From NCBI RefSeq assembly GCF_027912455.1, contig NZ_CP115446.1, positions 1,263,501 to 1,327,500 of the forward strand: a stretch of DNA of 64,000 bases, written 5' to 3'. Made by a program: the position numbers and the translations under genes. Position 1 is the stretch's first letter; the number at the start of each line of letters is the position of its first letter. Below are positions 7,412 to 39,602 of this stretch, one piece after another. The notes under the pieces are model-generated. The model made no database searches. It was given only the letters and a program-made list of their open reading frames with translations, and was not told the DNA's origin. This stretch comes from Aurantiacibacter sp. MUD61. Lineage in GTDB: Bacteria > Pseudomonadota > Alphaproteobacteria > Sphingomonadales > Sphingomonadaceae.

Positions 7412-7444
7412 GGCGCGGGATGTAGCAAGCTCGCGACAATGTGG

Positions 7445-7462
7445 ACCTCCCAAATGGGAGGT
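7445..7462. promoter_or_regulatory. Perfect 18-bp palindrome, putative operator
   Basis: ACCTCCCAAATGGGAGGT is an inverted repeat of 8-bp arms around AA. It sits in the 65-base gap between the divergent start codons of cysD and the LuxR-type regulator. The ACCT...AGGT ends and 18-bp length resemble lux-box-like sites of LuxR-family proteins. The neighbouring regulator is the obvious candidate to bind it, but that is inferred. Confidence 0.7.
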
Positions 7463-17564: not shown

Positions 17565-17566
17565 GA

Positions 17567-19384: not shown

Positions 19385-19537
19385 TCGGCCGCCTCCCTTC
19401 GCCCCCTCATGGGTCAGCCTGCATGGCACGGATCATGCGCCCATTACGGACCTGAGTCCAATTTCCGCCTCCGTGCCCGTGCAATACCGCAAGCTAGATC
19501 GATGCGATTGTGCAAAGGCGACACGCCCAAGCCAATT

Positions 19538-20443: not shown

Positions 20444-20564
20444 ACAAGACGCCCCCTCAACGCCGCTTTGGCCAAGCCTAGCGAAGCCCTGCAAAGGCGC
20501 AAGCGCAAGACACGGTTTCCTTTCGGCCCGCTTTTATGCATAACTGCAAGCAGGGGGGAAAGTG

Positions 20565-23015
20565 ATGGGGGAACCTCTACAGGTTCAAATTGCCATTGTC
20601 GGCTCCGGTCCGGCGGGCATGAGCGCTGCGGCCCATGCGGCGGCGCTCGGTCTTTCCCATGTCCTCATCGAAAAGACCGATCACCTCTCCGATACGATTT
20701 TCAAATACCAGAAGGGCAAGCACGTGATGGCGACGCCCAGCAATCTGGTGCTGCGCAGCGATCTCGATTTCGATGCGGGCAAGCGTGAAGCCATTCTGGA
20801 AACATGGGACCGGCAGATCGAGGAGGGCAAGGTCAAGGTCCTCTACAATGCCGAAGTGACCGAGATTACCGGGACAAGCGGCGATTTCACCGTGACGGCC
20901 AAAGGTGGCCAGGTGGTGAAAGCGCAGGCCGTGGTGCTCGCCATCGGGACGCAGGGGAACCCCAATTTGCTGCGCATTCCCGGCGCAGACTTGCCGCATA
21001 TCCAGTACCAGCTCGATGATCCGGGAGAGTATTTCGACGAGCACATTACCGTGGTCGGATCGGGTGATGCGGGGATCGAGAACGCGCTTGGCCTCGCCGC
21101 CGATCCAGCGCAAGCGAACACCGTAACCATCCTCAACCGGCGAGACAGCTTCGCCCGCGCCAAGGGTGCAAATGTCAAACTGCTGGAAGAGGCGGAGGCG
21201 GATGGACGGATCGTCGTGCGGCGAGAGACCTCTCCCATCGAAGTCCGACCGGGCGAATTGGTGCTGGAAACGCGCGATGGCGAGGTAACGATCCCCTGCG
21301 ATCGCATCATCGCGCGCACCGGCTCCAAACCGCCGCGCGGCTTTGTCGAGGCGATCGGCGTTGAATTCACAAGCGAAGAGCGCGACGCCTATCCGACGCT
21401 CAGCCAGACATTCGAGACCACCAAAAACGGCGTCCATGTTATCGGCGCGCTGGCGGGCTATCCGCTGATCAAGCACTGCATGAACCAGGGCTATGACGTG
21501 ATCGAATTCCTCAACGGGAATACCGATTTGAAGCCCGCCGACCAGCCGATCTTGGAAGAGAAACTCGCCGGCCTGCCGGGGCGCCGCAGCGTCGAGGAGT
21601 GGCTCGATGTGTTCGGCGAGAACGTCGTCATCTTCGAAGAGCTCTCACCGCTGCAACTGCGCGAGCTGATGCTCGATTCGACAGTGCATTACTTCGAGCG
21701 GGGCGAAACGGTGTTCACCAAGAATGAGCCGGGCAGCTCCATGTTCGCTATCGCCGAAGGATCGGTGGCGGTGCAGGTGAGCGAGGATGATCCCTCCATC
21801 ACCGTGCCCATCGAGCAAGGCTCCATCTTCGGCGAGGTCGGGCTGATTTCGGGCCGTCGCCGCGGCGCGACGATTCAGGCGGCAGAGCCGCTCGTGGCCA
21901 TCGAATTGTCCCGCAATGCCGCATTGAAGCTGATCGCCACCGTGCCGAGCGCCGGTCGTGCGGTAAACCGCATCTCCATCGAACGGCAATTCCTGCAAAT
22001 GTTCGGCAGCGGCCTGACGCGCGAGGATGTCGCCGAAATCGTCGAGGCGGGCGAAGTGATGGACGTTCGCGCAGGCGAAGTCGTTGTCGAAGAGGGCGCG
22101 GACGACAAGGACATCTTCGTCATCCGTCGCGGCTCGATGATCGTCGAGAAGAACATTGGCGGCCATCCGGTCTTTCTCTCCTACCTGCCGGCAGGCTCCT
22201 ATTTCGGGGAAATGGCGGTGATCGACGGATCGGCGCGCACCGCAACGGTCAAGGCCGCGATCAAGAGCGAGGTCGTGCGCTTTCCGGGCGAGAAATTCCT
22301 CGCGCTGATGGAAGCCAAGCCGGAGCTGAAAGGCCGCGCGCTCGAAGACATGCGCTCGCGGCGCGAGGTCAACGCTTTCGTCGAAGCGCGCAAGGACAGC
22401 TTCGGCAGCGCGGCGGACATGTATTCCGAAACCGCGCAATTCCTCGTCGACAACGGCATCGGCGAAGCGACCGACGTATTGCTGATCGACGAGAAGCTAT
22501 GCGTAGCCTGTGACAATTGCGAACGCGCCTGCGCGGACAGTCATGATGGCCTCAGCCGCCTCGACCGTGAGGCCGGGCGATCCTACGCGCATCTCCACGT
22601 GCCCACATCCTGCCGCCATTGCGAGCATCCGCATTGCATGGCCGACTGCCCGCCCAATGCCATCCAGCGCGGCCCCGATGGCGAGGTATTCATCGACGAC
22701 ACTTGCATCGGCTGCGGCAATTGCCAGCGCAATTGCCCCTACGGTGTGATCCGCATGGATGCGGTGCCGCCTAAGAAGCCTTCGCTGCTGAGCTGGCTGC
22801 TGTTCGGAGCCGGACCCGGCCCGGGCGAGGCAAGCTATGGCTGGCGCAAGAAACACGCCGATCCGGAAAAGCCCAAGCAGGCGATCAAATGTGACATGTG
22901 TGCAGGGATTGACGGTGGCCCTGCCTGCGTTCGCGCCTGCCCCACCGGCGCGGCGATCCGTGTGTCGCCCGACAAATTCCTGACAGTCACCAAGCTGACG
23001 GAGGATGTCGAATAA
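20565..23015 (+). CDS. FAD oxidoreductase with two cyclic-nucleotide-binding domains and a four-cluster ferredoxin
   Basis: An 816-residue cytosolic fusion. Residues 1-320 are a thioredoxin-reductase-like flavoprotein with FAD motif GSGPAG (13-18) and NAD(P) motif GSGDAG (near 166). It lacks the CxxC of true thioredoxin reductase, so electrons cannot leave by a disulfide. Two cNMP-binding domains follow (about 355-460 and 485-590). Their phosphate cassettes FGEVGLISGRRRGAT and FGEMAVIDGSARTAT keep the Glu and Arg that hold the cyclic nucleotide. Residues 645-805 resemble DmsB/HybA ferredoxins, with 16 cysteines in four groups (CVACDNCERAC, CRHCEHPHCMADC, CIGCGNCQRNC, CDMCAGIDGGPACVRAC), enough for four [4Fe-4S] clusters. 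Likely NAD(P)H-to-membrane electron transfer gated by cAMP or cGMP. An AGGGGGG site precedes the ATG; the stop overlaps the next start (TAATG). Confidence 0.88.
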   Translation: MGEPLQVQIAIVGSGPAGMSAAAHAAALGLSHVLIEKTDHLSDTIFKYQKGKHVMATPSNLVLRSDLDFDAGKREAILETWDRQIEEGKVKVLYNAEVTEITGTSGDFTVTAKGGQVVKAQAVVLAIGTQGNPNLLRIPGADLPHIQYQLDDPGEYFDEHITVVGSGDAGIENALGLAADPAQANTVTILNRRDSFARAKGANVKLLEEAEADGRIVVRRETSPIEVRPGELVLETRDGEVTIPCDRIIARTGSKPPRGFVEAIGVEFTSEERDAYPTLSQTFETTKNGVHVIGALAGYPLIKHCMNQGYDVIEFLNGNTDLKPADQPILEEKLAGLPGRRSVEEWLDVFGENVVIFEELSPLQLRELMLDSTVHYFERGETVFTKNEPGSSMFAIAEGSVAVQVSEDDPSITVPIEQGSIFGEVGLISGRRRGATIQAAEPLVAIELSRNAALKLIATVPSAGRAVNRISIERQFLQMFGSGLTREDVAEIVEAGEVMDVRAGEVVVEEGADDKDIFVIRRGSMIVEKNIGGHPVFLSYLPAGSYFGEMAVIDGSARTATVKAAIKSEVVRFPGEKFLALMEAKPELKGRALEDMRSRREVNAFVEARKDSFGSAADMYSETAQFLVDNGIGEATDVLLIDEKLCVACDNCERACADSHDGLSRLDREAGRSYAHLHVPTSCRHCEHPHCMADCPPNAIQRGPDGEVFIDDTCIGCGNCQRNCPYGVIRMDAVPPKKPSLLSWLLFGAGPGPGEASYGWRKKHADPEKPKQAIKCDMCAGIDGGPACVRACPTGAAIRVSPDKFLTVTKLTEDVE

Positions 23016-23881
23016 TGGCGACGGCTCCGGACAATCGCTATGCTCTCGACGAGGCGCGGCGGGACAGTGATCACGTCAGCTTCCTGAAGCATCGTCGCTG
23101 GCGTTGGGCAAAACTGGCCACGATAATCAGCGTGGTTGCGATCCTCAGCCATTTGCTGGTCGATGTAGAGCCACGCCACAATGGCGGCAGCTGGTATGGC
23201 TATACGCTCGGCACGATCGGCGCGGGCCTGATCGTCTGGCTCAGCCTGCTCGGCGTACGCAAGCGGAACATGAGCGAAGGCAAATGGAGCCTGAAGGCGT
23301 GGACCAGCGCTCATGTCTACCTTGGCCTTGCGCTGATCGTGATCGGCACGCTGCACACCGGCTTCCAGCTCGGCTGGAATGTCCATACGCTCGCTTGGGG
23401 GCTGATGATGGTGGTCATCGTTTCGGGGCTTTACGGCGTCTTCGCCTACGCCACGATCCCTTCGGAAATTAACGCCAACCGTCGGCAGATGACCAAGCGC
23501 GAAATGCTCGATGCACTTGCCGCCATCGACCGCCAGCTCGAAAGAGCTGCGCAGCCGCTGGGGCGCGAGGATGCCGACCTCGTTATCGCCGCGCTGGAGC
23601 AGGACCCCTTCGATTTCGGTGTCGGCACAAGGCTTTCGGGCCATTATCGCAAGTGCCGCACGATTGCCGCGCTCGATCAATTTGGCGTGTCCGGCCACGA
23701 TGACGCGCTCGACAAAGTCGTAAGCCTGCTGCGCAAGCGCCGCGCCCAGCTTGAACAAATCCGCCGCCAGATGCGCCTTCGCGCGCTGCTAGATATCTGG
23801 CTTTATGTTCATGTGCCCGTCACCATCGCGCTACTCGCAGCGCTGACGGCGCACGTGATTTCCGTTTTCTATTACTGGTGA
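23015..23881 (+). CDS. Cytochrome-b-like integral membrane protein
   Basis: A 288-residue protein with about five membrane helices (residues 30-50, 62-82, 97-116, 125-146 and 262-285) and a charged cytosolic loop of about 110 residues between helices four and five. Histidines within or next to helices (SHLLVD, AHVYLG, LHTGF, YVHVP, TAHVIS) are placed like axial ligands of b-type hemes in cytochrome b561 or DmsC/NrfD-type partners. The family is not certain. It is sandwiched between a cytosolic Fe-S flavoprotein and a periplasmic multiheme protein, with a one-base overlap upstream. It is therefore best read as the membrane link carrying electrons across the inner membrane. Confidence 0.75.
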   Translation: MATAPDNRYALDEARRDSDHVSFLKHRRWRWAKLATIISVVAILSHLLVDVEPRHNGGSWYGYTLGTIGAGLIVWLSLLGVRKRNMSEGKWSLKAWTSAHVYLGLALIVIGTLHTGFQLGWNVHTLAWGLMMVVIVSGLYGVFAYATIPSEINANRRQMTKREMLDALAAIDRQLERAAQPLGREDADLVIAALEQDPFDFGVGTRLSGHYRKCRTIAALDQFGVSGHDDALDKVVSLLRKRRAQLEQIRRQMRLRALLDIWLYVHVPVTIALLAALTAHVISVFYYW

Positions 23882-23892
23882 AGGGGGCTGTG

Positions 23893-25632
23893 ATGGAATT
23901 ACGCATTCGCAGTATCGACTTCACCGAAAGCGGCCGGGAAATCGTGCGCGAGCGCGAGGTCGGCACCGATGCGATTACCATTGGCCGCGCGAGCGAGAAC
24001 ACCATCCACCTGCCCGACCTTGCAATCGAGCAGACGCATATTGTCGTCACACAAAATGCGAGCGGAATGCTTGAGGCAAAAGCCGCCGGGACGCTCGGCT
24101 TCACGCATGACGGCGTGCACACTGAAGCTGCCAGCCTCGATCCTGCAAAGGGTGGGGAGCTGGGCCTCGGTTCCTATCTGCTGGCATTCGGCCAGGGTGA
24201 TGATGGCAAGCTTACGATCACGCAGCGCAAGGCCGCAAAGGACGATGGCGAAGCGAAAGACCGGCTCGCCGGCTTCGGGCTGAGCGGGGCGCTGCCCGGT
24301 AAACGTCCGATGGCCTGGGCGGCGCTCGTCGCCATACTCGTCGTCTTCCTTGCGATCCCGATTGTCTCCCATCTTTCGCGCGACCGCGTGGCGGAGCCCA
24401 GCGTGGAGGATGAAGGCAGTGTGATGATGGACGCCAGCTGGTCCACCGGTTCGCTTTCCAGCGTGCATCACGGATTGGAAGACAATTGCGAGGCTTGCCA
24501 CACCACCCCCTTTGTCGCCGTTCGCGATGAGTCGTGTCTGACCTGTCACGAAGGGCTGGGCGATCATGCCGAGCTTGACCGGCTGCGCACCGGAATGCCC
24601 GAGTTCACTGGCGGCGAAGCCTTCCTCTGGTCCGTGGCAGAGGCCTTCAACAAGCCGGGTCCGGGTGCCTGTACCGATTGCCACACCGAGCATGAAGGCG
24701 CCGGCCAGATGGAGCCGACCAGCGAGCGTTTCTGCGCCGATTGCCACGAAACGATGGACGTGCGCCTCACCGATACCTCGCTTGGGAATGCGCATGATTT
24801 CGGCACCGGGCACCCGCAATTCCAGGCGCTGATCACACCAGCGCGCGGTGAAGAGGAGCGCCGCACGGAACTCTCGGCCGATGGGGCGCATTTCAACGGG
24901 CTGAAATTCCCGCATGACGAGCATCTCTCGACCACCAACGGCGTCGCCCGCATGGCTGGCCGCCTCCGCAAATGGGAAATGACAGACGATGGCGCGCTCG
25001 CGTGCAGTGCCTGTCACACACCGACAGCCGATGGCGTACGCTTCATGCCGGTGGATATGGAGCAAAGCTGCGAGAGCTGCCACAGCCTTGTCTACGATCA
25101 GGTGGGCAGCACTTTCCGCTCGCTCAGCCATGGTGACCTCGATCAGGTGCGCGCCGATCTTCTCGCCGCAGACCGCGCGCCGCGTCGTCCCGTCCAGACC
25201 GGTCGGCGTCGTCCCGGTCAATATGCCGAGGGTGGCATCTATTTCGGTAATTTCAGCCGGGTGATTGTTCCGACTCTCGGCAATGCGCTGAGCGATGACG
25301 GGGTGTGCGGCGAATGCCATTACCGCGATACGAGTGCGAGCGGCGCATTGGCAGTACATCCGGTCGTGCAGCAAACCCGCTTCTTCCAGAATGGCTGGTT
25401 CGATCACGATGCGCATACACAGGAAACCTGCGTCAGCTGCCATGCCGCCGATACATCGGGCGATGCGGCAGACCTGCTGCTGCCCGACCTTGAAAGCTGC
25501 CGCGATTGCCATTTGGGAGAGACCGCGCTGGAGGCCGACGTGCCGTCGAGCTGCGCCATGTGCCATTCCTACCATCCGCGAGACAGCACCGGTGCCGCCG
25601 CGCCTCCGCGCATCGCCAGACGGGAGAGGTAG
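23893..25632 (+). CDS. FHA domain-transmembrane-decaheme cytochrome c
   Basis: A 579-residue type II membrane protein. Residues 1-105 form a forkhead-associated domain (TIGRASENTIHLPDL, then EQTHIVV), which in known cases binds phosphothreonine. One helix (about 142-160, MAWAALVAILVVFLAIPIV) leads to a periplasmic domain with ten CxxCH heme sites: CEACH, CLTCH, CTDCH, CADCH, CSACH, CESCH, CGECH, CVSCH, CRDCH and CAMCH. Many extra histidines can serve as distal ligands. A phosphopeptide reader joined to a cytochrome is unusual. AAGGGGG six bases before the ATG supports this start; a GTG at 23878 overlapping the previous stop is the alternative. Likely a periplasmic electron acceptor for the cytochrome b, with activity or assembly influenced by a cytosolic Ser/Thr kinase signal (inferred). 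Confidence 0.87.
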   Translation: MELRIRSIDFTESGREIVREREVGTDAITIGRASENTIHLPDLAIEQTHIVVTQNASGMLEAKAAGTLGFTHDGVHTEAASLDPAKGGELGLGSYLLAFGQGDDGKLTITQRKAAKDDGEAKDRLAGFGLSGALPGKRPMAWAALVAILVVFLAIPIVSHLSRDRVAEPSVEDEGSVMMDASWSTGSLSSVHHGLEDNCEACHTTPFVAVRDESCLTCHEGLGDHAELDRLRTGMPEFTGGEAFLWSVAEAFNKPGPGACTDCHTEHEGAGQMEPTSERFCADCHETMDVRLTDTSLGNAHDFGTGHPQFQALITPARGEEERRTELSADGAHFNGLKFPHDEHLSTTNGVARMAGRLRKWEMTDDGALACSACHTPTADGVRFMPVDMEQSCESCHSLVYDQVGSTFRSLSHGDLDQVRADLLAADRAPRRPVQTGRRRPGQYAEGGIYFGNFSRVIVPTLGNALSDDGVCGECHYRDTSASGALAVHPVVQQTRFFQNGWFDHDAHTQETCVSCHAADTSGDAADLLLPDLESCRDCHLGETALEADVPSSCAMCHSYHPRDSTGAAAPPRIARRER

Positions 25633-25637
25633 CGCAC

Positions 25638-26498
25638 ATGCTGATCGCGCAGATGACCGATATCCATATCGGGTTCGAGCCCGACGCAAAGCCGGAGGAG
25701 CTTAATCGCACGCGCTTTCGCGCAACGCTAGACCGGCTGCTCGCGCAACCCAATCCGGTCGATATGCTGCTGGTCACAGGTGACATCACCGACCGCGGGG
25801 ACCGGGAGAGTTTTACCCGCACGGCAGAATTGCTCGCCGCATGCCCGTTTCCGGTGAAAGCGCTGATCGGCAATCATGACACGCGCGAGGAATTGCTGCG
25901 CGCCTTTCCCGACACCGAGACCGATGCGGATGGCTTCATCCAGTCCGCGTTTGTGCAGGATGGACTGCTGGTGGTGATGCTCGATACGCTCGAGCCGGGG
26001 CGCCACGGCGGCGCTTTTTGCGAACGGCGGCGCGACTGGCTGAAAGCGACGCTCGCTGCGCATGCGGGCACGCCCACGGTCATTTTCATGCACCACCCGC
26101 CGGTGGTTTCCGGCATCGAGTGGATGGACCCCGATCCGTCGGAACAATGGATCGCCAATCTGGCCGATGCGCTGGAAGGCCATGCCGATCAGGTGCTCGC
26201 CATCCATTGCGGCCATCTGCATCGCCAGCTGGTCAGCCGGTTTTGCGGCATTCCGGTGTCCGTCACTCCGTCAGTCGCGCCGCTGGTGAGCATGGATATG
26301 CGGGCAATCAGCGGGGACACTCCCGACAGCCGCGCGCTCATTACGACCGAGCCGCCCACCTATGCGCTGCACCGTTGGAATGGGACTTCGCTGGCGAGCC
26401 ACTATGAGCGCGTCAGCGATTGGGATGTCATCGCGTACTATGGCCCCCATCTGCAGCCGATGATCCGCGAAATGGAGCGAGAGAAGGGGACGGGTTGA
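25638..26498 (+). CDS. CpdA-like cyclic nucleotide phosphodiesterase (metallophosphoesterase)
   Basis: A 286-residue class III calcineurin-like phosphoesterase with all dinuclear metal motifs: MTDIHIG (residue 6), GDITDRGD (about 47), GNHDTR (about 77), MHHPP (about 156) and GHLH (about 196). This is the pattern of cAMP phosphodiesterase CpdA, although related enzymes cleave glycerophosphodiesters. The start is set by GGGAGAGG eight bases upstream of 25638; longer reading frames run into the cytochrome gene. It lies six bases after the FHA-cytochrome in the same operon, beside a protein with cNMP-binding domains and opposite an adenylate cyclase, which favours a cAMP role. Confidence 0.87.
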   Translation: MLIAQMTDIHIGFEPDAKPEELNRTRFRATLDRLLAQPNPVDMLLVTGDITDRGDRESFTRTAELLAACPFPVKALIGNHDTREELLRAFPDTETDADGFIQSAFVQDGLLVVMLDTLEPGRHGGAFCERRRDWLKATLAAHAGTPTVIFMHHPPVVSGIEWMDPDPSEQWIANLADALEGHADQVLAIHCGHLHRQLVSRFCGIPVSVTPSVAPLVSMDMRAISGDTPDSRALITTEPPTYALHRWNGTSLASHYERVSDWDVIAYYGPHLQPMIREMEREKGTG

Positions 26499-26510
26499 AA
26501 GCCTAAACTC

Positions 26511-26592
26511 CGTTCGTCCTGAGCCTATCGAAGTACTGCTTTTCTTTTGTTGTGGCGCCGAAAGGAAGTACTATCCTACGACAAGCTTAGGA
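26511..26592. repeat. REP-like imperfect inverted repeat
   Basis: Between two convergent operons lie two arms of an imperfect inverted repeat. The left arm contains TCCTGAGCCTATCGAAGTACT at about 26517-26537 and the right arm AGTACT...CGACAAGCTTAGGA at about 26567-26592. The spacer is about 29 bases. The CTGAGC-T-TCGAAG core resembles a repetitive extragenic element I know from sphingomonad genomes. It abuts the stop codon of the lipoprotein gene and may act as a bidirectional transcription barrier. Confidence 0.6.
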
Positions 26593-26994
26593 TTAGCGGG
26601 CTTTTTGGTCTTCGCTGACATCCTCTTCGCCGCAATTCACTTCAGGATGATGGAGAAATTGGCCATCAGCGCCAATCTCCACGATCGCCACACATGGTGC
26701 ATGATTGACCTCGATCATCTCTTGGCTATCGCCATAGACGGTCCTGCTGGGCGTCTGGCTCGACAGATAAATTCCAATAATCGCTTTGTCGGCTGGAATG
26801 TCTCCAATCCCAAAAAAATTTTCGATTTCTTGCTCTTCGAAGAGAGCGTAGTGGCGTTCGTAATTGCCGAGGTCGATCCGACCTTCTTCAATGATTGTAG
26901 CCTCTAGCCGCTCGACGAGCTCATTGGTGTCCGGCTGTTGCTGGCAGGACGTCAGAGCAAGGGCTCCAAACAGCATTGCAAGCCCGAATCTCAT
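26593..26994 (-). CDS. Small lipoprotein of the multiheme operon
   Basis: A 133-residue hypothetical protein with a lipoprotein signal (MLFGALALTSC lipobox), so it should be anchored in the envelope. It contains a conserved-looking stretch NFFGIGDIPADKAIIGIYLS and two further cysteines (APCVAIVEI, VNCGEE) that could form a disulfide. No CxxCH is present. The start codon overlaps the stop of the decaheme cytochrome gene by four bases (ATGA), so it is translated with it. I do not recognise the family. A structural accessory to the outer-membrane complex is the contextual guess. Confidence 0.75.
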   Translation of the reverse strand: MRFGLAMLFGALALTSCQQQPDTNELVERLEATIIEEGRIDLGNYERHYALFEEQEIENFFGIGDIPADKAIIGIYLSSQTPSRTVYGDSQEMIEVNHAPCVAIVEIGADGQFLHHPEVNCGEEDVSEDQKAR

Positions 26995-31205: not shown

Positions 31206-33211
31206 CAGTAGCTCAGCGTCGCATTGGCGAGGATGGAGTAATAGACATTGTCGCCCCCGCGATTGTCGAACAGGTCCTGAAAGCCGTCGCCCGCCACCAG
31301 CGCCGCGCCGGAGAGGCGGAAGACGAGGTTCTGATTGGCCCGCGGCCGCCAGATGGCCGAAACCGACACGTCATAGCCGATGTCTTCGGGGATCGACCCT
31401 TCCACGCGCAGCGCTTCGAGGACGCTGGTATCTTCGAACCACAGGTGATTGGCATTGCCGGAGACGCGCAATTCCGGTGTCAGGTCGAAATCCGCGCCGA
31501 CGCCCGTCAGGATGAGGCCGGGATTGTTGAAATTGCTCTGCCCCTGCTCCTTGGAACTGCGCAATGAATTGAGCAGGCCATTGCGGCCATTCAGGCTGAC
31601 CGCCCGCCCGCCGCCCGCGAAGGGAATGGTCTGGCGCATCCAGTATGAGGTGTCCGCGCCTGCAAAGATGGGATTTTCAAAAATCGCGTCGAACCCGCCT
31701 TCGACATTGTTGAACGGATCGCTGTCTCCGCTGGCGAACAGGCCGGAGAGGCGGAAGCGCATCCAGTCGCGGTCATAGCTCAGCTCCGCCGCGCCGAAGA
31801 AAGCGCGGATTTCGGCAGGTTCGCTGGTGAAGATCGAATTGCGGTCTTCGCCAAACGCGCCGTAGAGGCTGGCGGTCACATTGATCCGCCCGATGCGGCC
31901 ATCGGCGTTGTAGCCGACATAGAGCACATCGTAGTCGCGCCCGCGCAAATCGCCGAGCAGGGCGGGGCGCACAGGGAAGCCGTTGTCGTCGATCTCCACG
32001 TCACCGCCTTCGCGGTTCATATTGTAGACGAGCGTGAACTGGCTGGTGAGCGCGGGGATCAGGAAGTCCTGGCGATAGGCATTGGCGACGAACACGAAAT
32101 CGCTGCGCGGCGTTTGCGTGATGTCGTTGAGGCCCGAATTGGTGTCTTTCTCCAGCCGCCAGAAGGCACCGAGATTGTACTGGAAACGATTGTTGTCCCG
32201 CGTGCCGAAAAAGCGCAGGCCCAGCTGGCTATCCTGAAACAGGAATCCGCGGAAATCGGCCTGGAACGGCTGGATGCCGATGCGGAAGCTGTCGAAATCG
32301 TACCGCTCGCTGGTGTTGCGGATGTGGTAGTCGAAAAAGGCTTCCTGCACGCCGAGAAAGTCGTCGGTGCGATTGCTCGCGCGGCTGGGTTCGACCAGCA
32401 GCACGCGCCGCTCGGGAACATCGACATGGTTGATATTGTAGGCGAGCGTCAGGCGGTATTCGACATCGGGCGGCTTGTACGCGGTCGAGCCCTTGATCAG
32501 GGCAGCACCGAAGATGAAGGTCTGCGAAAAGACAGGCGAATAATCATTGCCGAACACATCCAGCCGGTCCGGGTCTTCGGTCGTCTGCACGCCGACGGGT
32601 ATCGGGAAAGTGCGCGGCTCGATCACCGTGTCGGAAATGGCGTTGATGACAAAGAACCAGTCATTGCCCTCGAGTCCAAGGAAGCGCGGTGTCCAGCACT
32701 CGTCCGACCCATAGGGATATTCGACGCGCGTGGGATCGTAGGGCCTGCCTTCCGCAAGGGCGCGGCTGCGTTCGGCCTCTTCCGCAGCCCGGCGCAGGCC
32801 GGCGCGATATTCGCGCTCCTCATCCGAATTGATGCAGATCGGGCGATCGCCCTTGTAGGTGTTCTGGCGGTAGGGATCGAAGGGGTCTTCGGTCACGAGC
32901 CCCAGGTTCTGGATCAGCCGCCAGCGATCGGGAATGGGGATCTGCTCGGTCGGAAAAGCTTGCGGCGGCGGCGCGCGAATGGCTCCGGCGTTCTCCTGCG
33001 TCACAGGATCGGGAAGTTCCCCCACAAAGCCGGGACGGCGGCGTCCTTCGATGATCTCGGGATCGACCGGTTCTGCCGGATCGACCTGGGTCCCCAGACC
33101 GCCATCGGGCCGCTCCTGATCCTCGACCTGCTCCTGCTGTTCCTCGGTTTCCGGATCGCCCGGCACATCCTGTGCCTGCAGCGCGAGGATCAAGGCGAGC
33201 GCGGTTTCCAT
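31205..33211 (-). CDS. Outer-membrane beta-barrel partner of multiheme cytochromes
   Basis: A 668-residue exported protein. A short signal (METALALILALQAQ) is followed by a disordered acidic/proline segment (about 20-110). Two cysteines lie at CINSDE and DECWTP. From about residue 200 to the end, alternating amphipathic strands with aromatic girdles run to the final strand, which ends ANATLSY as in outer-membrane proteins. ATG at 33211 overlaps the upstream stop (TGATG); the frame stays open to 33268. It shows no obvious similarity I can name to MtrB or PioB. A barrel encoded between multiheme cytochromes is nevertheless the hallmark of porin-cytochrome conduits, and I infer that role. Confidence 0.77.
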   Translation of the reverse strand: METALALILALQAQDVPGDPETEEQQEQVEDQERPDGGLGTQVDPAEPVDPEIIEGRRRPGFVGELPDPVTQENAGAIRAPPPQAFPTEQIPIPDRWRLIQNLGLVTEDPFDPYRQNTYKGDRPICINSDEEREYRAGLRRAAEEAERSRALAEGRPYDPTRVEYPYGSDECWTPRFLGLEGNDWFFVINAISDTVIEPRTFPIPVGVQTTEDPDRLDVFGNDYSPVFSQTFIFGAALIKGSTAYKPPDVEYRLTLAYNINHVDVPERRVLLVEPSRASNRTDDFLGVQEAFFDYHIRNTSERYDFDSFRIGIQPFQADFRGFLFQDSQLGLRFFGTRDNNRFQYNLGAFWRLEKDTNSGLNDITQTPRSDFVFVANAYRQDFLIPALTSQFTLVYNMNREGGDVEIDDNGFPVRPALLGDLRGRDYDVLYVGYNADGRIGRINVTASLYGAFGEDRNSIFTSEPAEIRAFFGAAELSYDRDWMRFRLSGLFASGDSDPFNNVEGGFDAIFENPIFAGADTSYWMRQTIPFAGGGRAVSLNGRNGLLNSLRSSKEQGQSNFNNPGLILTGVGADFDLTPELRVSGNANHLWFEDTSVLEALRVEGSIPEDIGYDVSVSAIWRPRANQNLVFRLSGAALVAGDGFQDLFDNRGGDNVYYSILANATLSY

Positions 33212-35202
33212 CACAGGCCCTGACACACATTTTGCGCGTCCGTATCGAGGAACGGCGCGAAGGGACAATTGATGTAGCGAAGGCGCGTGTTGCGGCCATT
33301 CACATTCACAACGATCCGGTCTGCGCGGATCGCCGGATCGGCATTGTTCACACTGCCTGTCCGCACGCCCGCATTATGCAGGCCGAGGAAGCTGACCATG
33401 TCATCCTGGTCGATCCCGTCGCCCGACACGCCGATACCGCCGACCAGCACGTTGCCGCGATAGATCGGGACAGAACCGGGAAAGATCTGGACGCCATTGG
33501 CGATGCGCGGGCTTCCAGAGGGCGAGTTCGGCGCAAGCGTACAACCGCGCGGCGTATCGCTCGCCGCAGTGCCGCTCACAAAGGCGAGATGCGCGCCGAT
33601 ATTGGGCACCACCAGATCGGTCTGCAGGCCCACTGCAAAGGGACTGAAAGTGGCGGGCACCTGCACCGACAATGGGCCGGCCACGGCGCTGACTTCACCA
33701 TCGGGGAAATAGGGCCGCGAAAGGTTGCCGCCGGAGCGATCGGCAAAGGCGAAATTGCCGGTCAGTGCGGCAGGATCGCCGAGGAATGTGCGCACGCGGT
33801 TCACGTAATCCGCGCCGGCCAAGCCGCCGGGCGGGGCAGGGATCGGAGCAAGGTCTGCGGCAGCAACAGGATTGGAGAAGAAAGCGGCCGTACGCGCCTT
33901 CTGCAAGCTGACATCGACGCCGAAAATCGGCCCGTCGGGGGAGCGTACGATGCCGAGAACTTCGCCATGCGTATCGACCAGGCTGATGCTCGCCTGCATG
34001 CGGCTGTCGGTGGGGCGGCGAATTTGCGCACGGGCGCGGCTGAGGATGGTGAAAGCCTCCTCCAGGATCGTGCGCACTTCGTCTGCGGTCAGAGGCTGCG
34101 CGACGCTTCCACCATCGGTCCCGGAACGGATCGGGTAGCGCGGAATGCCCGCACCATCGGTGAGCACCCAGGCATCGCGATTGGAGAATTCGGCCGCTGT
34201 CGAGGCGCGAATGCCCGAGGCCTCGCTGCCATAGGCTGTCCCTGAGCGCAGCGTACCGTCCGTGTAGCCGGTGACCGGGACCAGATTGCCTGCGGTGCCA
34301 TTGATCGCCGCAAAGCTGCCGCCCCCGCCGGTGATCTGGCTTTCGCTGACATCGGTGAAGCGTAGCGAGGTGCCGTCCACGAAAATGCGGTTTGCGCGAA
34401 TATTGGTGGGCGGCATGAAGCCCTGCGCCCCCGCAATAGCGATAGCTTCCTCGGCATCGTTTTCGACATCGAGGATATTGGGATCGAAGCCATAATCGCC
34501 ATCGCCCATCACGCCAATGCCGCCGACCACGACCCCGTTCTTGTACAGCGGCAATCCGCCCGGATCGGCCGCGAGGCCCAGCGGCGAACGCTTGGGTCCG
34601 ATCAGCCCGTCGTCCGCACGTGCGGAAAGGTCGGAACACGGCAGCTGGCTGAATTGCACGCCGAACAGCGGCCCGCTTTCGAGCCCTACTGTAGTGGGCG
34701 CGGGCGGGAAATGCTCCTGCACGATCATGCTGGCGGTGCGGCTGGTGAAGGCATTGCCGCTGCTCGAAAGATAGGCTCCGGTCAGGGCCTTGGCGATGGC
34801 CGCCGCCGTGCTTGGCACCATCGCGCCTTGCAGGCCGATCTCGCTGCCGCTGGCCGCCATTCCGCCGATCTGTCGGCGGCTGAGCGCGGCCATGTCGGGC
34901 GCGCCGTTCATGTCGAATACGGCGAGCACATTGCCGACGCGGTCCGTCACGGCGATGACCGATGGCAGATTGCGGCTCTGCGCCTCCGCCACGGCCTGTG
35001 CGATCACTGCCTGCACGTCGGTGATAGACAGGGCTTCCTGTGCGGGCGGAGTGAACAGCTGGCCCGACGGCGGAGGCGTGGGTGACGGTGTCGGGACGAC
35101 AGCATTGCCGCTGCCATTCTGTCCGCCATCACCGCCTCCGCCGCACCCCGCAAGCACCAGCGCGCTCGCGGACAGCAATGCGGTGGCCCCCCTCCAGCGC
35201 AT
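33211..35202 (-). CDS. Lipoprotein with two GlcG/HbpS-like domains
   Basis: A 663-residue lipoprotein (lipobox LVLAGC, then a Gly/Ser linker). Two copies of a GlcG/HbpS (DUF336) fold follow. The first begins LSITDVQAVIAQAVAEAQSR with SVIAVTDRVGNVLAVF and ends near VVGGIGVMGDGDYG. The second begins LTADEVRTILEEAFTILSRA with SISLVDTHGEVLGIV and ends near VLVGGIGVSGDGID. HbpS binds heme and iron in actinomycetes, while other members have cofactor or stress roles. Placement between a pentaheme cytochrome and the barrel, with TAATG and TGATG overlaps at both ends, suggests heme handling or a redox-complex scaffold. Four cysteines beyond the lipobox are probably structural. Confidence 0.8.
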   Translation of the reverse strand: MRWRGATALLSASALVLAGCGGGGDGGQNGSGNAVVPTPSPTPPPSGQLFTPPAQEALSITDVQAVIAQAVAEAQSRNLPSVIAVTDRVGNVLAVFDMNGAPDMAALSRRQIGGMAASGSEIGLQGAMVPSTAAAIAKALTGAYLSSSGNAFTSRTASMIVQEHFPPAPTTVGLESGPLFGVQFSQLPCSDLSARADDGLIGPKRSPLGLAADPGGLPLYKNGVVVGGIGVMGDGDYGFDPNILDVENDAEEAIAIAGAQGFMPPTNIRANRIFVDGTSLRFTDVSESQITGGGGSFAAINGTAGNLVPVTGYTDGTLRSGTAYGSEASGIRASTAAEFSNRDAWVLTDGAGIPRYPIRSGTDGGSVAQPLTADEVRTILEEAFTILSRARAQIRRPTDSRMQASISLVDTHGEVLGIVRSPDGPIFGVDVSLQKARTAAFFSNPVAAADLAPIPAPPGGLAGADYVNRVRTFLGDPAALTGNFAFADRSGGNLSRPYFPDGEVSAVAGPLSVQVPATFSPFAVGLQTDLVVPNIGAHLAFVSGTAASDTPRGCTLAPNSPSGSPRIANGVQIFPGSVPIYRGNVLVGGIGVSGDGIDQDDMVSFLGLHNAGVRTGSVNNADPAIRADRIVVNVNGRNTRLRYINCPFAPFLDTDAQNVCQGL

Positions 35203-36629
35203 TACCGCAGCCTTCCGATCGCACTGACCGCATCGCCCAGCGCCGTCCGGAACGCAGCGGGGCGATACTCGCCGGGGCTGCTCACTGCCGAATAGGCGCG
35301 GTTGATATTGGCGCGAATGCCCGCGGCGGCTCCGGTTGTCACGCGGCCATCGCTCACCAGCGCATTGAGCAGCGTATCGATCGCCATCACCGCCTGCACG
35401 CTGCCCGCATAATCGGTGAAGCGGGGCGAGACGGCACGGCTGCCAATCCGTTCTACAATGGTGAAGGCATCATTCGATCCATAGCCGCGCGAAGAGAGGG
35501 CAGCAGAGAGCGACTGCGCTTCGCTGCGCAAGGCAATCGCGGCGCGCTGCGCATCGGCGCGGCCATCGTCCATGGCATCGTGGAAGTCGCGGCTGGCGGC
35601 GCGGAAGGCATCGCTGCGGCCCGGCGCCAGCACATCGGCCACGGCGGACAGCATGATGATATTCTCATCGTTGAAAGGCGGTTGGCCGAAAGTGATCGGT
35701 CGGCCCGGATTGGTTTCGAATGTCAGTCGTCTCTCGTCGCCATCGGTGATGGGCCGGTGGCACGAATGGCAATCGTAGAAATAGAGCTGCGGGAAGACCC
35801 CCTCGGTCCCATAGGCAGGCCGCGCAAACAGATCGGTCGCGCGCGCGACGGCTTCGGCCTGCCCCACTGCCCAAAGCTGCACGCTGTCAGGCTGGCCTTT
35901 GCGCTGCACATAATCGGCATCGACATCGTGATGCTGCTGGAATGCGCTGAACAGGTCGAGCTCGAATGTGAGGCGCGGGTGGCCTGCCGCCATCATGGCG
36001 TGGGTGACGAATTGACCGCGATCGGTGCTGCCATAATGGCAATCGAGGCAGACCCGCGCGCGGACCTGCGGATCCTCCAGCGGGGTAAGGCCATTGCGCA
36101 CATTCGCAGGATGTGTGCCGCGCACTTCGTAATGGCTCGACAGCCAGCCAATGGCCGCTCCGTGGCAGCTTTCACAGCCGACACCATCGTCCAGCTGGAA
36201 GCGCGGGCCGCGCTCGCTGGCGGGGACGTAGGTCGCATGACAGCCGAGGCATGATCCTGCCGAACGCGCGTCACCCAGGCCGAGCGAGCTGGAAATCTGC
36301 TGCCCGCGCCGCCCGCCCAGCAAAGCAAAGGCGCGGCTGTGCGCTCCGCTGACCGCGCTGGGTGATTGCCATGTGGCGATTTCGTCCTGCCGCACGATGG
36401 CACCATTGCCCTCGCTACGCCCGTGGCAGGTGGACCCCGCGCAGGAAGCAACACCGGTGTAGGAATAGCCGCTTTGCGCATTCAATGGCTGGCCTGCGGA
36501 AAGTCCGGCGAACAGGGCAATCGCCAGCGTCAACGCGGCAGTCGGCAGGAGAGTGAGAGGTCGCGCAAAGCCAAACGCAGCACGGACCCCGGCAATCAAC
36601 CGGCGTATCGCGGAACCGCGTTGAGCCAT
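35202..36629 (-). CDS. Pentaheme c-type cytochrome (c554-like)
   Basis: A 475-residue exported cytochrome with an N-terminal hydrophobic signal/anchor (PLTLLPTAALTLAIALFAGL). It has four CxxCH sites (CLGCH, CESCH, CLDCH, CHSCH) plus one less common CX4CH (CAGSTCH), the latter first in sequence. The layout VASCAGSTCHG, then VGCESCHG and RVCLDCHYG recalls cytochrome c554 and related multiheme proteins. The C-terminal 170 residues are helical and without heme motifs. AGGGGGG before ATG at 36629 decides the start; the same site precedes the flavoprotein gene at 20565. It is the first of five coupled genes and probably a periplasmic shuttle to the outer membrane. Confidence 0.85.
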   Translation of the reverse strand: MAQRGSAIRRLIAGVRAAFGFARPLTLLPTAALTLAIALFAGLSAGQPLNAQSGYSYTGVASCAGSTCHGRSEGNGAIVRQDEIATWQSPSAVSGAHSRAFALLGGRRGQQISSSLGLGDARSAGSCLGCHATYVPASERGPRFQLDDGVGCESCHGAAIGWLSSHYEVRGTHPANVRNGLTPLEDPQVRARVCLDCHYGSTDRGQFVTHAMMAAGHPRLTFELDLFSAFQQHHDVDADYVQRKGQPDSVQLWAVGQAEAVARATDLFARPAYGTEGVFPQLYFYDCHSCHRPITDGDERRLTFETNPGRPITFGQPPFNDENIIMLSAVADVLAPGRSDAFRAASRDFHDAMDDGRADAQRAAIALRSEAQSLSAALSSRGYGSNDAFTIVERIGSRAVSPRFTDYAGSVQAVMAIDTLLNALVSDGRVTTGAAAGIRANINRAYSAVSSPGEYRPAAFRTALGDAVSAIGRLR

Positions 36630-36745
36630 CGCTTTCCCCCCTTCATCGGCACCCTTGGGTGCGATTGGCAACTCCCCAGCTGCCGTCCCTCCATTCGGAC
36701 ACTAACCCATCACCCGCCGTTTGGCGAGACCGCTATGGCACCCGA

Positions 36746-37462
36746 TCACTCAGCCAGCGCGCGGGCCATCTGATCGAGCTGGACGGTGCAGTTGTTGGCG
36801 AGCAGTGTCAGCGCCAGTTCCTCGCCGTCCTCAGGGATATCCTGCAGGAAGACGAAATTGACTTCGGTCGGCGTGGTGCCGCCGGAAATGACATAGGTCT
36901 CGCCTTCGCGCAGCTGCACCGCTCCATCCCAGATGCCCAGCATTTCACGCTCCGGGAAAGTGACGGCAATCGCCTCACCTTCGGAACCAGCCCGGCTGAC
37001 CGAATAGGTCGCTGCTTCGGAGGTATCGGCGCGCCACAATTGCAAGGGATCGGGATTGGCGAGGCAGATCGTCCCGCTCTGGCTGATGTCGACATACCAG
37101 AGGTTGGGATTGGTCACATTTTCGCCGTCGCCGCGTACGGCACCGGTGCGAGCCCGGTCAGACGAGCGGCGCGTGGTGAGCGCAGCCAGCGTGCGATTGT
37201 CCGATCGCGCGCCGCGCCGGGCGAGGACGAAGGTGCCCGGTCCGCGAAATGTCCGGGTGCGTCCGCCATCCAGTACAGTCAGAACATCGCCGTTTCGCAG
37301 GGTGATGCGCTGGGTATCGCCGATCTGTGTACCGACAGGATATTGCTCGGAAGATGGTCCGCTTGAAGCGACAACAGTGCCGGCATGCGCCGCTTCCGGC
37401 ACCAGCATCAGCGCCGCTGCGGCTCCGGCGATTGCCAGCAAAGTCTTGTTTGGCAAACCCAT
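36746..37462 (-). CDS. FecR-domain protein
   Basis: A 238-residue exported protein with a signal peptide (LLAIAGAAAALMLVPEAAHA). A FecR-like beta domain follows: SSEQYPVGTQIGDTQRITLR, then GDVLTVLDGGRTRTFRGPGTF, about residues 30-90. In iron signalling FecR is an anti-sigma regulator, but this protein has no cytoplasmic part and no sigma factor neighbour. It therefore belongs to the stand-alone secreted FecR proteins often found near CHASE2 sensor genes. GAGGAGGGAACC upstream sets the start. It lies 88 bases after the cyclase gene and 116 bases before the cytochrome operon, all in the same direction. A ligand or partner for the CHASE2 domain is a reasonable guess. Confidence 0.75.
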   Translation of the reverse strand: MGLPNKTLLAIAGAAAALMLVPEAAHAGTVVASSGPSSEQYPVGTQIGDTQRITLRNGDVLTVLDGGRTRTFRGPGTFVLARRGARSDNRTLAALTTRRSSDRARTGAVRGDGENVTNPNLWYVDISQSGTICLANPDPLQLWRADTSEAATYSVSRAGSEGEAIAVTFPEREMLGIWDGAVQLREGETYVISGGTTPTEVNFVFLQDIPEDGEELALTLLANNCTVQLDQMARALAE

Positions 37463-37550
37463 GGTTCCCTCCTCACACCTTCGGTTTCGTCTTCCATACC
37501 AGATTTGCACCCGCTTGTGCGCGCTGAATAGGAAATTTGCGAAATCGCCG

Positions 37551-39602
37551 TCACTTGCCCGCCATGACATAGGCACCATCCGCATTCAGATCGCGGCAGC
37601 GCTCGAGCAGCGCGGCAAGGCCCGTATCCTCGGGATATTTCGCCGCCATCGCCCCAATCGTTCGGATTGCTCCCTCTCGAGCGGTATCGAGCATCTCCAC
37701 CGCCGTGTTCAGCGTGCGGCGATCGTGCTCGGCAAAGTCGGGCGCGGGCTCATACAATTCGACCGGTCGCGAGCGACCGGACAAGATTACGCGGCCCATC
37801 CGCCGCCACCATTTGAGGCCGGACCGGCTGGCAAATTCCTCGCTCGCCATCACCGATGTGCGGAACGTCTTGTTTCCCGACTCGAGCCGGGCGGCTGTAT
37901 TCATGCTGTCGCCCAGCGCGGTATACTGGATGCGGTTTTCGCCGCCGAAATTGCCCACGACCGCTTCGCCGAAATGCAGTCCCACGCGGGTTTTGCCGAT
38001 CGGGGGCAGGCTGGGGTCCATGCGCGCCACTTCTTCGCGAAATGCCTCGCCCGCCTGCCAGATGGCATAGCCACATTGCGCCGCGCGCGTCGCATCATCG
38101 GGCCGTGCGATCGGTGCGCCCCAGAAGGCCACCACTGCATCGCCGATGAATTTGTCGAGGATGCCGCCATGGGCCAGTACCACGTCGGAAAGCATTTCGA
38201 GATAGCGGTTGAGCAGTTTGGCGACCATCTCCGGGGCAATGGCGTGGCTCATCTTGGTGAAGCCCTCAAGGTCCGAAAACAGCACGTAGATTTCGCGCTT
38301 CTCGCCGCCAAGGCGCAGCAGTTCGGGTTTTTCGATGATCTCTTCGGCAATGCTTTGCGGCAAATATTTGCCCAGCGCGCCTTGCGCGAATTTTCGCTGC
38401 ACCGCGCCCGATGCCCGCGCCGCGCTGGTGACAGCGGTAAAGGCCAGGATCCAGCCGAGCGCCGGCCCGACGGCGGGGAAGCCGTGGGTGTCGACGCCGC
38501 GTTCATGCAGGAAGAATGGCAGTCCGATAAACAGCAGCACCTGCGCCACCAGCAGCGGGATGAACTTCCAATTGCGCAGCTCCAGCAGGGCGGTCAGCGT
38601 GGCGGCGATGACGACCAGCATGGCAAGCGCCCAGAGATACCATGGGGATGGCTGGCGCAGCCGATCACCATCGAGCATTTGGGCGATGGTCGCCGCGTGA
38701 ATGGCGATACCCGGTGGCCGTACGCTGCGCCCGCCCTGTTCCACTGCGGCGTCGGTGAAGCCCGAAAGCGGCGTCAGCGCGCGGTCGTAATCGGTAATAT
38801 CGCCGCCGATCAGGACATAGGAATCGCGGACAGCCGTTTCGAATTCGGCGCGCGCCTCCGGGATCGCAAAGATCTCATCCATGCTGAAGACCATGATCGA
38901 GAGGCTGGGAACCACCGGCTCATCGGCAAAGGCGGGCCGGCGGAAGCGGATCGCACCTTCATACCCCGCAAAGCGCTCTGCTGCCGGATCGCCCGCCATT
39001 TCCAGCATGACTCGCCCCAGAAGCGGCGGGCTGCCGTCGATAATGTCCGGCCACAGCCGCGTGACACCTTCGTTCTCGGCCAGGCGGATGCTCGCGCGTC
39101 GCACATTGGGCCCTTCCACAGCGGCCATGAACTCGTCGAGATAGAGCTGCTGCTCATATTCGATATCGAGCGCATTGGTATCGACGCTGGCATAGCCGAC
39201 CGCCGTGGGTGTTTGCATGGCTCGCAATGTCTCGATCAGCTCGGCATCCTCGGCCTGCGGCTGGTCGAACAATATATCGACGCCGATCGCTTTCGCGCCC
39301 AGCGTGTCGATATTGCGAAGCGCGGCGGCGATGGTGTCGCGCGGCAAGGGGGATCTCTTCTGCAGCTCGATCAGCGCCTGATCGTCAAACGCAATGATCA
39401 CCACCCGCATGTCCGGTTCGACCAGTTCGGACAGGTAATATTCCCGCGCATCATACAGCGCCCGCTCGGCCGTATCGGTGAACCAGATCTGCCAGCTGAA
39501 GCGCGCGAGCAGCAAAGCAAGGATGAGCATGAGGCCAGTCAGCACAAGCCGTCTGGGACCCGCCTCGCGCACGCTGCGCCAGCCGGTGGCAAAGATCCGC
39601 AT
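37551..39602 (-). CDS. CHASE2-domain class III adenylate cyclase
   Basis: A 683-residue membrane sensor that should make cAMP. One helix (about 20-38) leads to a periplasmic CHASE2 domain (about 45-310; VVIIAFDDQALIEL, AIGVDILF, VLIGGDITDYD). Three adjacent helices follow (321-341, 345-366, 374-394), then a cytosolic cyclase domain (435-600). The two metal aspartates are in FSDLEGF and GDAVVAFWG. Adenine-selecting Lys and Asp are in DKFIGD and ALGDSMN, and the transition-state Asn/Arg in NTAARLE, so the active site looks complete. ATG at 39602 with AGGA five bases upstream is preferred to a TTG at 39668. It is the probable source of the signal read by the cNMP-binding flavoprotein. Confidence 0.9.
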   Translation of the reverse strand: MRIFATGWRSVREAGPRRLVLTGLMLILALLLARFSWQIWFTDTAERALYDAREYYLSELVEPDMRVVIIAFDDQALIELQKRSPLPRDTIAAALRNIDTLGAKAIGVDILFDQPQAEDAELIETLRAMQTPTAVGYASVDTNALDIEYEQQLYLDEFMAAVEGPNVRRASIRLAENEGVTRLWPDIIDGSPPLLGRVMLEMAGDPAAERFAGYEGAIRFRRPAFADEPVVPSLSIMVFSMDEIFAIPEARAEFETAVRDSYVLIGGDITDYDRALTPLSGFTDAAVEQGGRSVRPPGIAIHAATIAQMLDGDRLRQPSPWYLWALAMLVVIAATLTALLELRNWKFIPLLVAQVLLFIGLPFFLHERGVDTHGFPAVGPALGWILAFTAVTSAARASGAVQRKFAQGALGKYLPQSIAEEIIEKPELLRLGGEKREIYVLFSDLEGFTKMSHAIAPEMVAKLLNRYLEMLSDVVLAHGGILDKFIGDAVVAFWGAPIARPDDATRAAQCGYAIWQAGEAFREEVARMDPSLPPIGKTRVGLHFGEAVVGNFGGENRIQYTALGDSMNTAARLESGNKTFRTSVMASEEFASRSGLKWWRRMGRVILSGRSRPVELYEPAPDFAEHDRRTLNTAVEMLDTAREGAIRTIGAMAAKYPEDTGLAALLERCRDLNADGAYVMAGK

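Follow-up and report, generated by a model that had tools for sequence, protein, structure and literature searches.

A putative seven-protein envelope electron-transfer system with a flavoprotein bearing cyclic-nucleotide domains in Aurantiacibacter sp. MUD61

Genes of the locus

The genome of Aurantiacibacter sp. MUD61 is a single contig of 2.97 Mb. We analysed a stretch of 64,000 nucleotides from it (NZ_CP115446.1, positions 1,263,501 to 1,327,500), called the window below; all coordinates are counted from its first letter. The window holds a candidate envelope electron-transfer locus made of two convergent operons. Operon 1 lies on the plus strand at 20562-26498 in the order FLAV, CYTB, FHA10, PDE. 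Operon 2 lies on the minus strand at 39668-26593 in the order CYC, FecR-like gene, C5, HBPS, BARREL, LVIVD, LP133. The genes are as follows (aa, amino acids).

20562..23015, plus strand: FLAV, 817 aa, with a TrxR/YpdA-like FAD and NAD(P)H domain, two cyclic nucleotide monophosphate (cNMP)-binding domains (CNB1 and CNB2) and four cysteine sets for [4Fe-4S] clusters (Pfam)
23015..23881, plus strand: CYTB, 288 aa, a membrane protein of dihaem-b type with two H-x13-H helices (conserved His)
23878..25632, plus strand: FHA10, with a cytoplasmic FHA domain, one transmembrane helix and a decahaem c domain (structure model, PDB fold match, CXXCH count)
25638..26498, plus strand: PDE, a CpdA/SpdA/Rv0805-type metallophosphoesterase (Pfam calcineurin-like phosphoesterase)
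26593..26994, minus strand: LP133, a small lipoprotein (lipobox LTSC, read by eye)
26991..31205, minus strand: LVIVD, 1404 aa, with a decahaem domain, LVIVD repeats and a Sec signal (Pfam)
31205..33211, minus strand: BARREL, a predicted outer-membrane beta-barrel with 18 long strands (structure model)
33211..35202, minus strand: HBPS, a lipoprotein with HbpS-like domains (PF03928)
35202..36671, likely start ATG at 36629, minus strand: C5, a secreted pentahaem cytochrome, cytochrome c554-like (four CXXCH and one CX4CH)
36746..37585, minus strand: FecR-like secreted protein, a name without Pfam confirmation (similarity to a protein of Sphingobium plasmid pMSHV)
37551..39668, minus strand: CYC, a CHASE2 sensor with a class III adenylate cyclase (Pfam, PF00211)

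Adjacent genes are closely coupled. Overlaps of one base join FLAV to CYTB at 23015, C5 to HBPS at 35202 and BARREL to LVIVD at 31205, and HBPS and BARREL share one base at 33211, provided that BARREL begins at its own ATG. Four bases are shared by CYTB and FHA10 (23878-23881) and by LVIVD and LP133 (26991-26994). The initial annotation of this DNA had given the two convergent operons, their coordinates, gene order and overlaps of one to four bases correctly. Its count of 25 haem sites was also right: ten CXXCH in FHA10, ten in LVIVD, and four CXXCH with one CX4CH in C5. A six-frame scan of the window, covering stop-to-stop frames of 60 aa or longer, found two or more CXXCH in these three proteins only. 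Pfam confirmed the domains of the cNMP-binding FAD/Fe-S oxidoreductase, the putative phosphodiesterase, the cyclase, and the HbpS-like and LVIVD proteins. The FecR-like label fared worse, as the protein matched no Pfam family, FecR included, at E 0.01; it is 38% alike over 209 aa to the pMSHV protein, which adjoins a CHASE2 gene.

Conservation of a seven-gene core and of its cofactor sites

We searched a panel of 99 genomes (that of MUD61 included), 240 genomes of the class and a phylum sample of 249, and scanned a collection in which a single genome represents each species. The scan confirmed at least 594 stretches that encode an LVIVD relative. Counts for named loci refer to the best 80 of these at least 594 stretches, 41 of the 80 being longer than 20 kb. 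In distant loci, FLAV, CYTB, FHA10, HBPS, BARREL, LVIVD and C5 stand in one co-directional operon, and we call these seven genes the core. The record titles of such loci name Alpha-, Beta- and Gammaproteobacteria; a few loci belong to other phyla (e.g. Vicinamibacteria, Marinimicrobia) by record title only.

The 80 named loci contain FLAV in 59 cases, CYTB in 56, FHA10 in 58, HBPS in 63, BARREL in 75, LVIVD in 80 and C5 in 58. Among the 41 long loci, FLAV, CYTB, FHA10 and HBPS are present in 40 each, BARREL and LVIVD in 41, and C5 in 30. The first six core genes occur together in 51 of the 80 and all seven in 37. The gene order FLAV-CYTB-FHA10-HBPS-BARREL-LVIVD-C5 is found in 16 of them, the same order minus C5 in 14, and an order running from CYTB to C5 and then FLAV in 11.

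The initial annotation had proposed a search for co-occurrence as a check. It turned out that FLAV and LVIVD are present in an identical set of 28 of the 99 genomes and that the cluster is kept in other genomes; four additional weak FLAV hits (30-35%) lie in other families of the order. The FLAV-CYTB-FHA10-PDE module was seen in all 27 fetched relatives as far as their contigs reach (that of G032 stops inside CYTB). In two genomes (G040, G058) the FLAV and LVIVD modules lie at separate places, both being present. LVIVD was found in 20 of the 240 class genomes, with 15 strong matches (E 4.6e-70 or better) and 5 weak ones, and all 15 genomes with a strong match hold FLAV. The phylum sample gave strong LVIVD matches in 4 of 249 genomes and weak ones in 8 more. 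Pairwise distances between core proteins correlate with r of 0.84-0.93 for seven protein pairs (41-86 loci), a value reached in 0 of 999 permutations for each pair.

We rejected the idea of two unrelated adjacent operons because the genes form a single co-directional operon elsewhere and FLAV and LVIVD share the same 28 genomes. Composition, operon structure and co-occurrence, all observed directly, support the core genes as one putative functional electron-transfer unit. The locus described by the initial annotation stood, but the unit extends further and has other boundaries than had been supposed. Loci L144 (13741-15558) and L142 (3772-5715) combine the FLAV-CYTB-FHA10 trunk and C5 with a five-haem c554-like protein of 606-648 aa, and there is no LVIVD in either stretch.

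The LVIVD gene is also carried by 13 of 72,556 plasmid records, all of them megaplasmids (12 from Sphingobium and one from Sphingopyxis). Plasmid pMSHV of Sphingobium herbicidovorans (L240), typed as conjugative, has the entire locus with the cyclase, a two-partner secretion pair, PDE and a TPR protein gene. Cultivated genera with an LVIVD relative include Duganella, Limnobacter, Haliea and Steroidobacter. These genera and Sphingobium are known as aerobes, and one would not expect them to export electrons through multihaem proteins.

The cofactor sites of the core proteins are conserved. Pfam gave FLAV tandem cNMP-binding, pyridine-nucleotide/FAD and 4Fe-4S domains, the CNB domain scoring 111.9 bits at a cut-off of 27.5. 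Its relatives in the PDB are YpdA/Bdr (FLAV residues 8-298), formate hydrogenlyase subunit 2 (residues 640-806) and the regulatory domains of PKG and PKA. Each of the 16 Fe-S cysteines is kept in 92-93 of 93 orthologue rows. The phosphate-cassette Glu and Arg, which we take to be residues of cyclic-nucleotide binding, are present in 92/93 and 93/93 rows in CNB1, and in 82/93 and 93/93 in CNB2. The sequence also has an NR..R motif, presumably of NADPH type, with R199 in 89/93 and R205 in 79/93 rows. These features support FLAV as a putative entry protein of NAD(P)H type.

In CYTB, for which a Pfam search gave no family, the four haem-b His and one more His are invariant in 72 of 72 rows. Ten CXXCH are found in 84 of 85 FHA10 rows, the lone exception stopping at a contig end. 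The initial annotation had called FHA10 an FHA-decahaem protein. The ten CXXCH stood, and the confident part of the model (residues 1-113, followed by a helix at 137-162) matches solved FHA domains in the PDB, but the Pfam FHA model missed the domain; the model of the haem domain is of low confidence. The Ser of the SxxH motif, presumably the conserved phosphothreonine-reader residue of FHA domains, is kept in just 7 of 85 rows (Arg in 69, His in 61), which weakens the idea of FHA10 as a functional phosphothreonine reader.

Some loci carry additional genes next to these. In gammaproteobacterial loci L185 (15083-16874), L189 (14973-17104) and L207 (14986-17045), a PP2C-type phosphatase and a double-FHA protein follow C5. 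Clustering placed the two proteins in 12 and 8 loci out of 100, with Pfam checks made for L185 and for the FHA protein of L189. These genes hint at phosphorylation control. In alphaproteobacterial operons a small secreted protein is encoded between FHA10 and HBPS (L129:13011-13667, L130:6963-7604 and 14 more loci), and that of L129 matched no Pfam family.

Folds, signals and locations at the outer-membrane end are predictions. C5 has four CXXCH in 61 of 61 rows and the CX4CH in 20 of 20; of 63 rows, 59 show a hydrophobic signal core and 1 a lipobox. LVIVD is the most conserved component: its median identity to 60 rows from distant loci (L166-L228) is 0.61, and 112 of 113 rows have ten CXXCH. 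Its closest named match comes from Aurantiacibacter marinus (86%). The BARREL model (mean pLDDT 68.7) predicts an integral outer-membrane beta-barrel with AlgE as the best fold match and Occ/OprD channels also among the best. HBPS matches PF03928 in three stretches (E 3.2e-21), and 58 of 90 orthologues have a lipobox; no redox cofactor was shown for HBPS. LP133 is rare in relatives: of the 34 stretches fetched, 2 gave a match by tblastn.

Proposed electron flow and its possible control by a cyclic nucleotide

We assign a probability of about 0.6 to the reading that the locus belongs to a widespread and apparently undescribed electron-transfer system of the proteobacterial envelope with seven proteins, in which electrons would pass from NADPH to LVIVD as terminal oxidoreductase and a cyclic nucleotide would set the flow. 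The cytoplasmic FLAV would take electrons from NADPH (or NADH) onto its FAD and pass them through the four [4Fe-4S] clusters to the dihaem CYTB in the inner membrane. CYTB would reduce the periplasmic decahaem part of FHA10, and this the pentahaem C5. C5 may then deliver electrons to the decahaem LVIVD at the outer membrane, beside the AlgE-like barrel and the HbpS-type lipoprotein, where LVIVD would act as a specific terminal oxidoreductase. Occupancy of both CNB domains by a cyclic nucleotide would control the flow through FLAV, and in this lineage the PDE of the same operon and the sole class III cyclase may link the flow to cyclic AMP (cAMP). The use of NADPH, the direction, the order of carriers, the terminal substrate and the effect of cAMP on FLAV are what we infer here.

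Several observations weigh against this reading. C5 was not found in 11 of the 41 long loci. FLAV without LVIVD was found in five class genomes: one is cut by a contig end (G123), three have FLAV-CYTB-FHA10 (G150, G158, G203) and one has FLAV alone (G218), from which it follows that the inner trunk serves something else too. The CNB2 Glu is replaced by Gln in 9 of 93 rows, and the NADPH motif is imperfect, with R200 in only 38 of 93. The core elsewhere mostly comes without cyclase and PDE. The presence of any class III cyclase in 27 of the 28 cluster-positive and 3 of the 32 cluster-negative members of the family favours the reading, but the Fisher value for this difference (2.4e-12) ignores shared ancestry. 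In other families, 10 of 39 genomes have a class III cyclase, and all of these are cluster-negative. Genome G006 (L060, L251; 99% complete) keeps the cluster and both CNB sites and has no class III cyclase. Beside its C5, merely a short FecR-like match remains.

The components are reversible in principle, and the core operon occurs in a Haliea metagenome-assembled genome (MAG) titled Biocath_Gamma_022 (L175). Electrons might therefore flow inward, from an outer substrate to NADP+ or the respiratory chain. We consider this very improbable, as electrons of c haems would have to climb in energy to reach NADP+ on general knowledge, and FLAV is akin to NADPH-oxidising reductases in its FAD part and to ferredoxin-like subunits in its Fe-S part; potentials and the reductase-type flavoprotein are the reasons for proposing outward flow. 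Such flow could end on minerals or electrodes if BARREL and LVIVD passed electrons across the outer membrane as MtrCAB does. A barrel, multihaem proteins and a lipoprotein do share one operon, and 18 strands are compatible with a conduit because Geobacter ExtB is described with 18 predicted strands, loss of its cluster causing a growth defect on electrodes (PMC6148476). The best folds of BARREL are, however, those of AlgE and Occ/OprD channels, and a lipobox is absent from LVIVD in 112 of 113 rows and from C5 in 62 of 63. The conservation of LVIVD between distant loci suits a specific enzyme more than a wire, and the named cultivated hosts are mostly known as aerobes. An extracellular conduit is thus unlikely, though better placed than inward flow. 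The high conservation of LVIVD, its lack of a lipobox and its AlgE-like neighbour favour a specific outer-membrane reduction over a general wire. Of the NAD(P)H-to-outside chain of the initial annotation, one unit with an NAD(P)H-type entry stood on operon structure, co-occurrence and co-divergence, whereas delivery to the outside did not find support, given the barrel fold and the missing LVIVD lipobox.

It is also quite possible, if somewhat short of even odds, that the cyclase and FecR-like genes belong to a CHAT/two-partner-secretion module and that the CNB domains answer a global cAMP pool or another ligand, without any local circuit. G059 and G050, the latter cluster-negative, both have the genes CHAT-CYC-FECR-TPSB-TPSA side by side (L244, L245), the cyclase and FecR-like gene precede TpsB-TpsA in Sphingobium, and the MUD61 genome has six other open reading frames with CNB domains. 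On the other hand, no other protein of the genome matches PF00211 besides CYC, and a search of this genome for a class I cyclase found none. Pfam assigns CYC a CHASE2 and a class III cyclase domain, and its alignment to 6fht and 2w01, with residues read by eye, has the metal Asp pair, Lys/Asp and Asn/Arg, which we take to be the catalytic residues of class III. A CYC orthologue (at least 46% identity) is present in 22 of the 28 cluster-positive and 1 of the 32 cluster-negative genomes of the family, including cases on other contigs or at other places (G040, G058, G059); G041 and G051 have matches of only 38% and 33%. Within the genus, a class III cyclase occurs in 19 of 20 cluster-positive and 1 of 20 cluster-negative genomes. 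PDE follows FHA10 in 27 of the 28 cluster-positive genomes, the 28th contig (G032) stopping before it. This enzyme falls below both NCBIfam equivalog cut-offs (SpdA 146.8 bits, cut-off 400; CpdA 80.5, cut-off 225), and it matches the structure PDB 2hy1 (E 1e-19). As PDE is found in these 27 genomes and in Sphingobium but in only 2 of the 41 long named loci, it is, judged from gene content, a lineage addition outside the core, and so is the cyclase (a weak match in 2 of 41). The claim of the initial annotation that second-messenger synthesis and removal are encoded on site did not hold for the core, and CYC occurs in the cluster-negative G050 as well. A local circuit may exist, and the cyclase may equally be part of the secretion module; the conserved CNB sites depend on neither.

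Returning to the proposed seven-protein system, we tentatively suggest a form of second-messenger gating. Cyclic nucleotide binding to an NADPH-flavoprotein may directly switch a transmembrane multihaem chain in aerobes among the Alpha-, Beta- and Gammaproteobacteria, with NADPH spent on one conserved outer-membrane reduction, and the FHA domain (with PP2C and double-FHA proteins in some gammaproteobacterial loci) may add phosphorylation-type control of assembly. If so, we know of no earlier respiratory-like chain in which a second messenger acts as the gate at the protein level. Such a switch would tie carbon-state signalling to envelope redox balance.

Known systems and neighbouring genes

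The system resembles porin-cytochrome conduits and Geobacter ext clusters. MtrCAB, OmbB-OmaB-OmcB and ExtABCD/ExtEFG share with the locus a periplasmic multihaem cytochrome, an outer-membrane barrel and a further multihaem protein in one operon. As defined in PMC6148476, a conduit comprises a multihaem periplasmic c-type cytochrome, an outer-membrane barrel and an outer-membrane lipoprotein with a redox cofactor. The first is predicted here in FHA10 (ten haems past the transmembrane helix) and C5 (five haems), and the second in BARREL; for the third, a lipobox occurs in 58 of 90 HBPS orthologues and in just one row each of LVIVD and C5. Unlike these conduits, the operon encodes a flavoprotein of NAD(P)H type that carries CNB domains, along with a cytochrome b and an FHA protein, its barrel is AlgE-like, and no multihaem outer-membrane lipoprotein was recognised. 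MtrB has 28 predicted trans-membrane motifs (PMC5877670), and no MtrB-like entry was present among the 50 fold matches shown for BARREL. These matches lend no support to a classical MtrB-type conduit, although such a list does not prove absence.

On the ExtM model (NF040943, NCBIfam cut-off 800), LVIVD scores 59.6 bits and the LVIVD protein of L129 scores 78.1. The Geobacter cluster extHIJKLMNOPQS, connected with selenite and tellurite, is described as also having a cytochrome b, a porin-like protein and a pentahaem protein; it differs by Rieske and rhodanese proteins, and its description names no flavoprotein, CNB, FHA or LVIVD protein (PMC5877670). Its extHIJKL part is described as being without an outer-membrane cytochrome (PMC6148476). 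Because the ExtM score is below the cut-off and a redox lipoprotein is at most a candidate, we do not file the locus as a conduit or ext member. Tellurite reduction was considered because of the likeness of LVIVD to ExtM and because certain aerobic phototrophs are able to reduce tellurite, and it was left as a weak lead: the purified, NADH-using Erythromonas enzyme is described as 117 kDa with subunits of 62 and 55 kDa (PMC5488091), sizes which do not fit the locus. C5 weakly matches OcwA (6i5b, E 4e-4; PMC6703420). It differs from OcwA-, c554- and NrfA-type cytochromes by having five haems, a predicted secreted location and no catalytic-site evidence. Parts of FLAV are like YpdA/TrxR-type NADPH reductases and HycB-type ferredoxins by structure match. 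A literature search of open-licence PMC papers found no description of such a fusion with tandem CNB domains and no paper describing the gene set, in line with the initial annotation, which knew of no system with this combination. The seven-gene system thus appears to be undescribed.

Beyond FLAV, reading away from the locus, the window contains the following genes.

19538..20494, minus strand: CcmI/CycH-like TPR protein, divergent from FLAV and beyond the coordinates of the locus first noted (PF23914)
17567..19429, minus strand: ShlB/FhaC-type two-partner secretion transporter, TpsB, of the neighbouring module (PF03865)
12456..17615, minus strand: TpsA-like exoprotein, 1719 aa, of the same module (similarity to a Sphingobium protein)
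9409..12459, minus strand: TPR-CHAT protein of the same module (PF12770, E 9e-51)

The CHAT, TpsA-like and TpsB genes (9409-19429) lie on the side opposite to CYC and the FecR-like gene, so that the secretion module brackets the electron-transfer genes. The TpsA-like protein, which matched no Pfam family, is 30% alike over 399 aa to a Sphingobium protein of 2092 aa. In 15 of the 27 fetched relatives TpsB is the direct neighbour of the TPR gene; several of the stretches are too short to tell. The CHAT gene adjoins the cyclase in L244 and L245 and TPSA in L075.

The TPR protein scores 49.5 bits on PF23914 (cut-off 42), and its gene is next to FLAV in 25 of the 27 relatives; the remaining two contigs begin inside FLAV. 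It is probably a dedicated cytochrome c maturation helper. Genes of ccm type adjoin some loci; those of L190 were confirmed by Pfam, and the others were recognised through clustering. PF01578 genes are present in the MUD61 genome. All these genes fit haem loading. In a Sulfuriflexus MAG (L190:13805-15890), ccmA/B/C-type genes come straight after the operon, and clustering finds proteins like these in 5-8 of 100 loci, including L166. Further along the minus strand of the window, at 4584-7453, are sulfate assimilation genes of CysN/C and PAPS reductase type.

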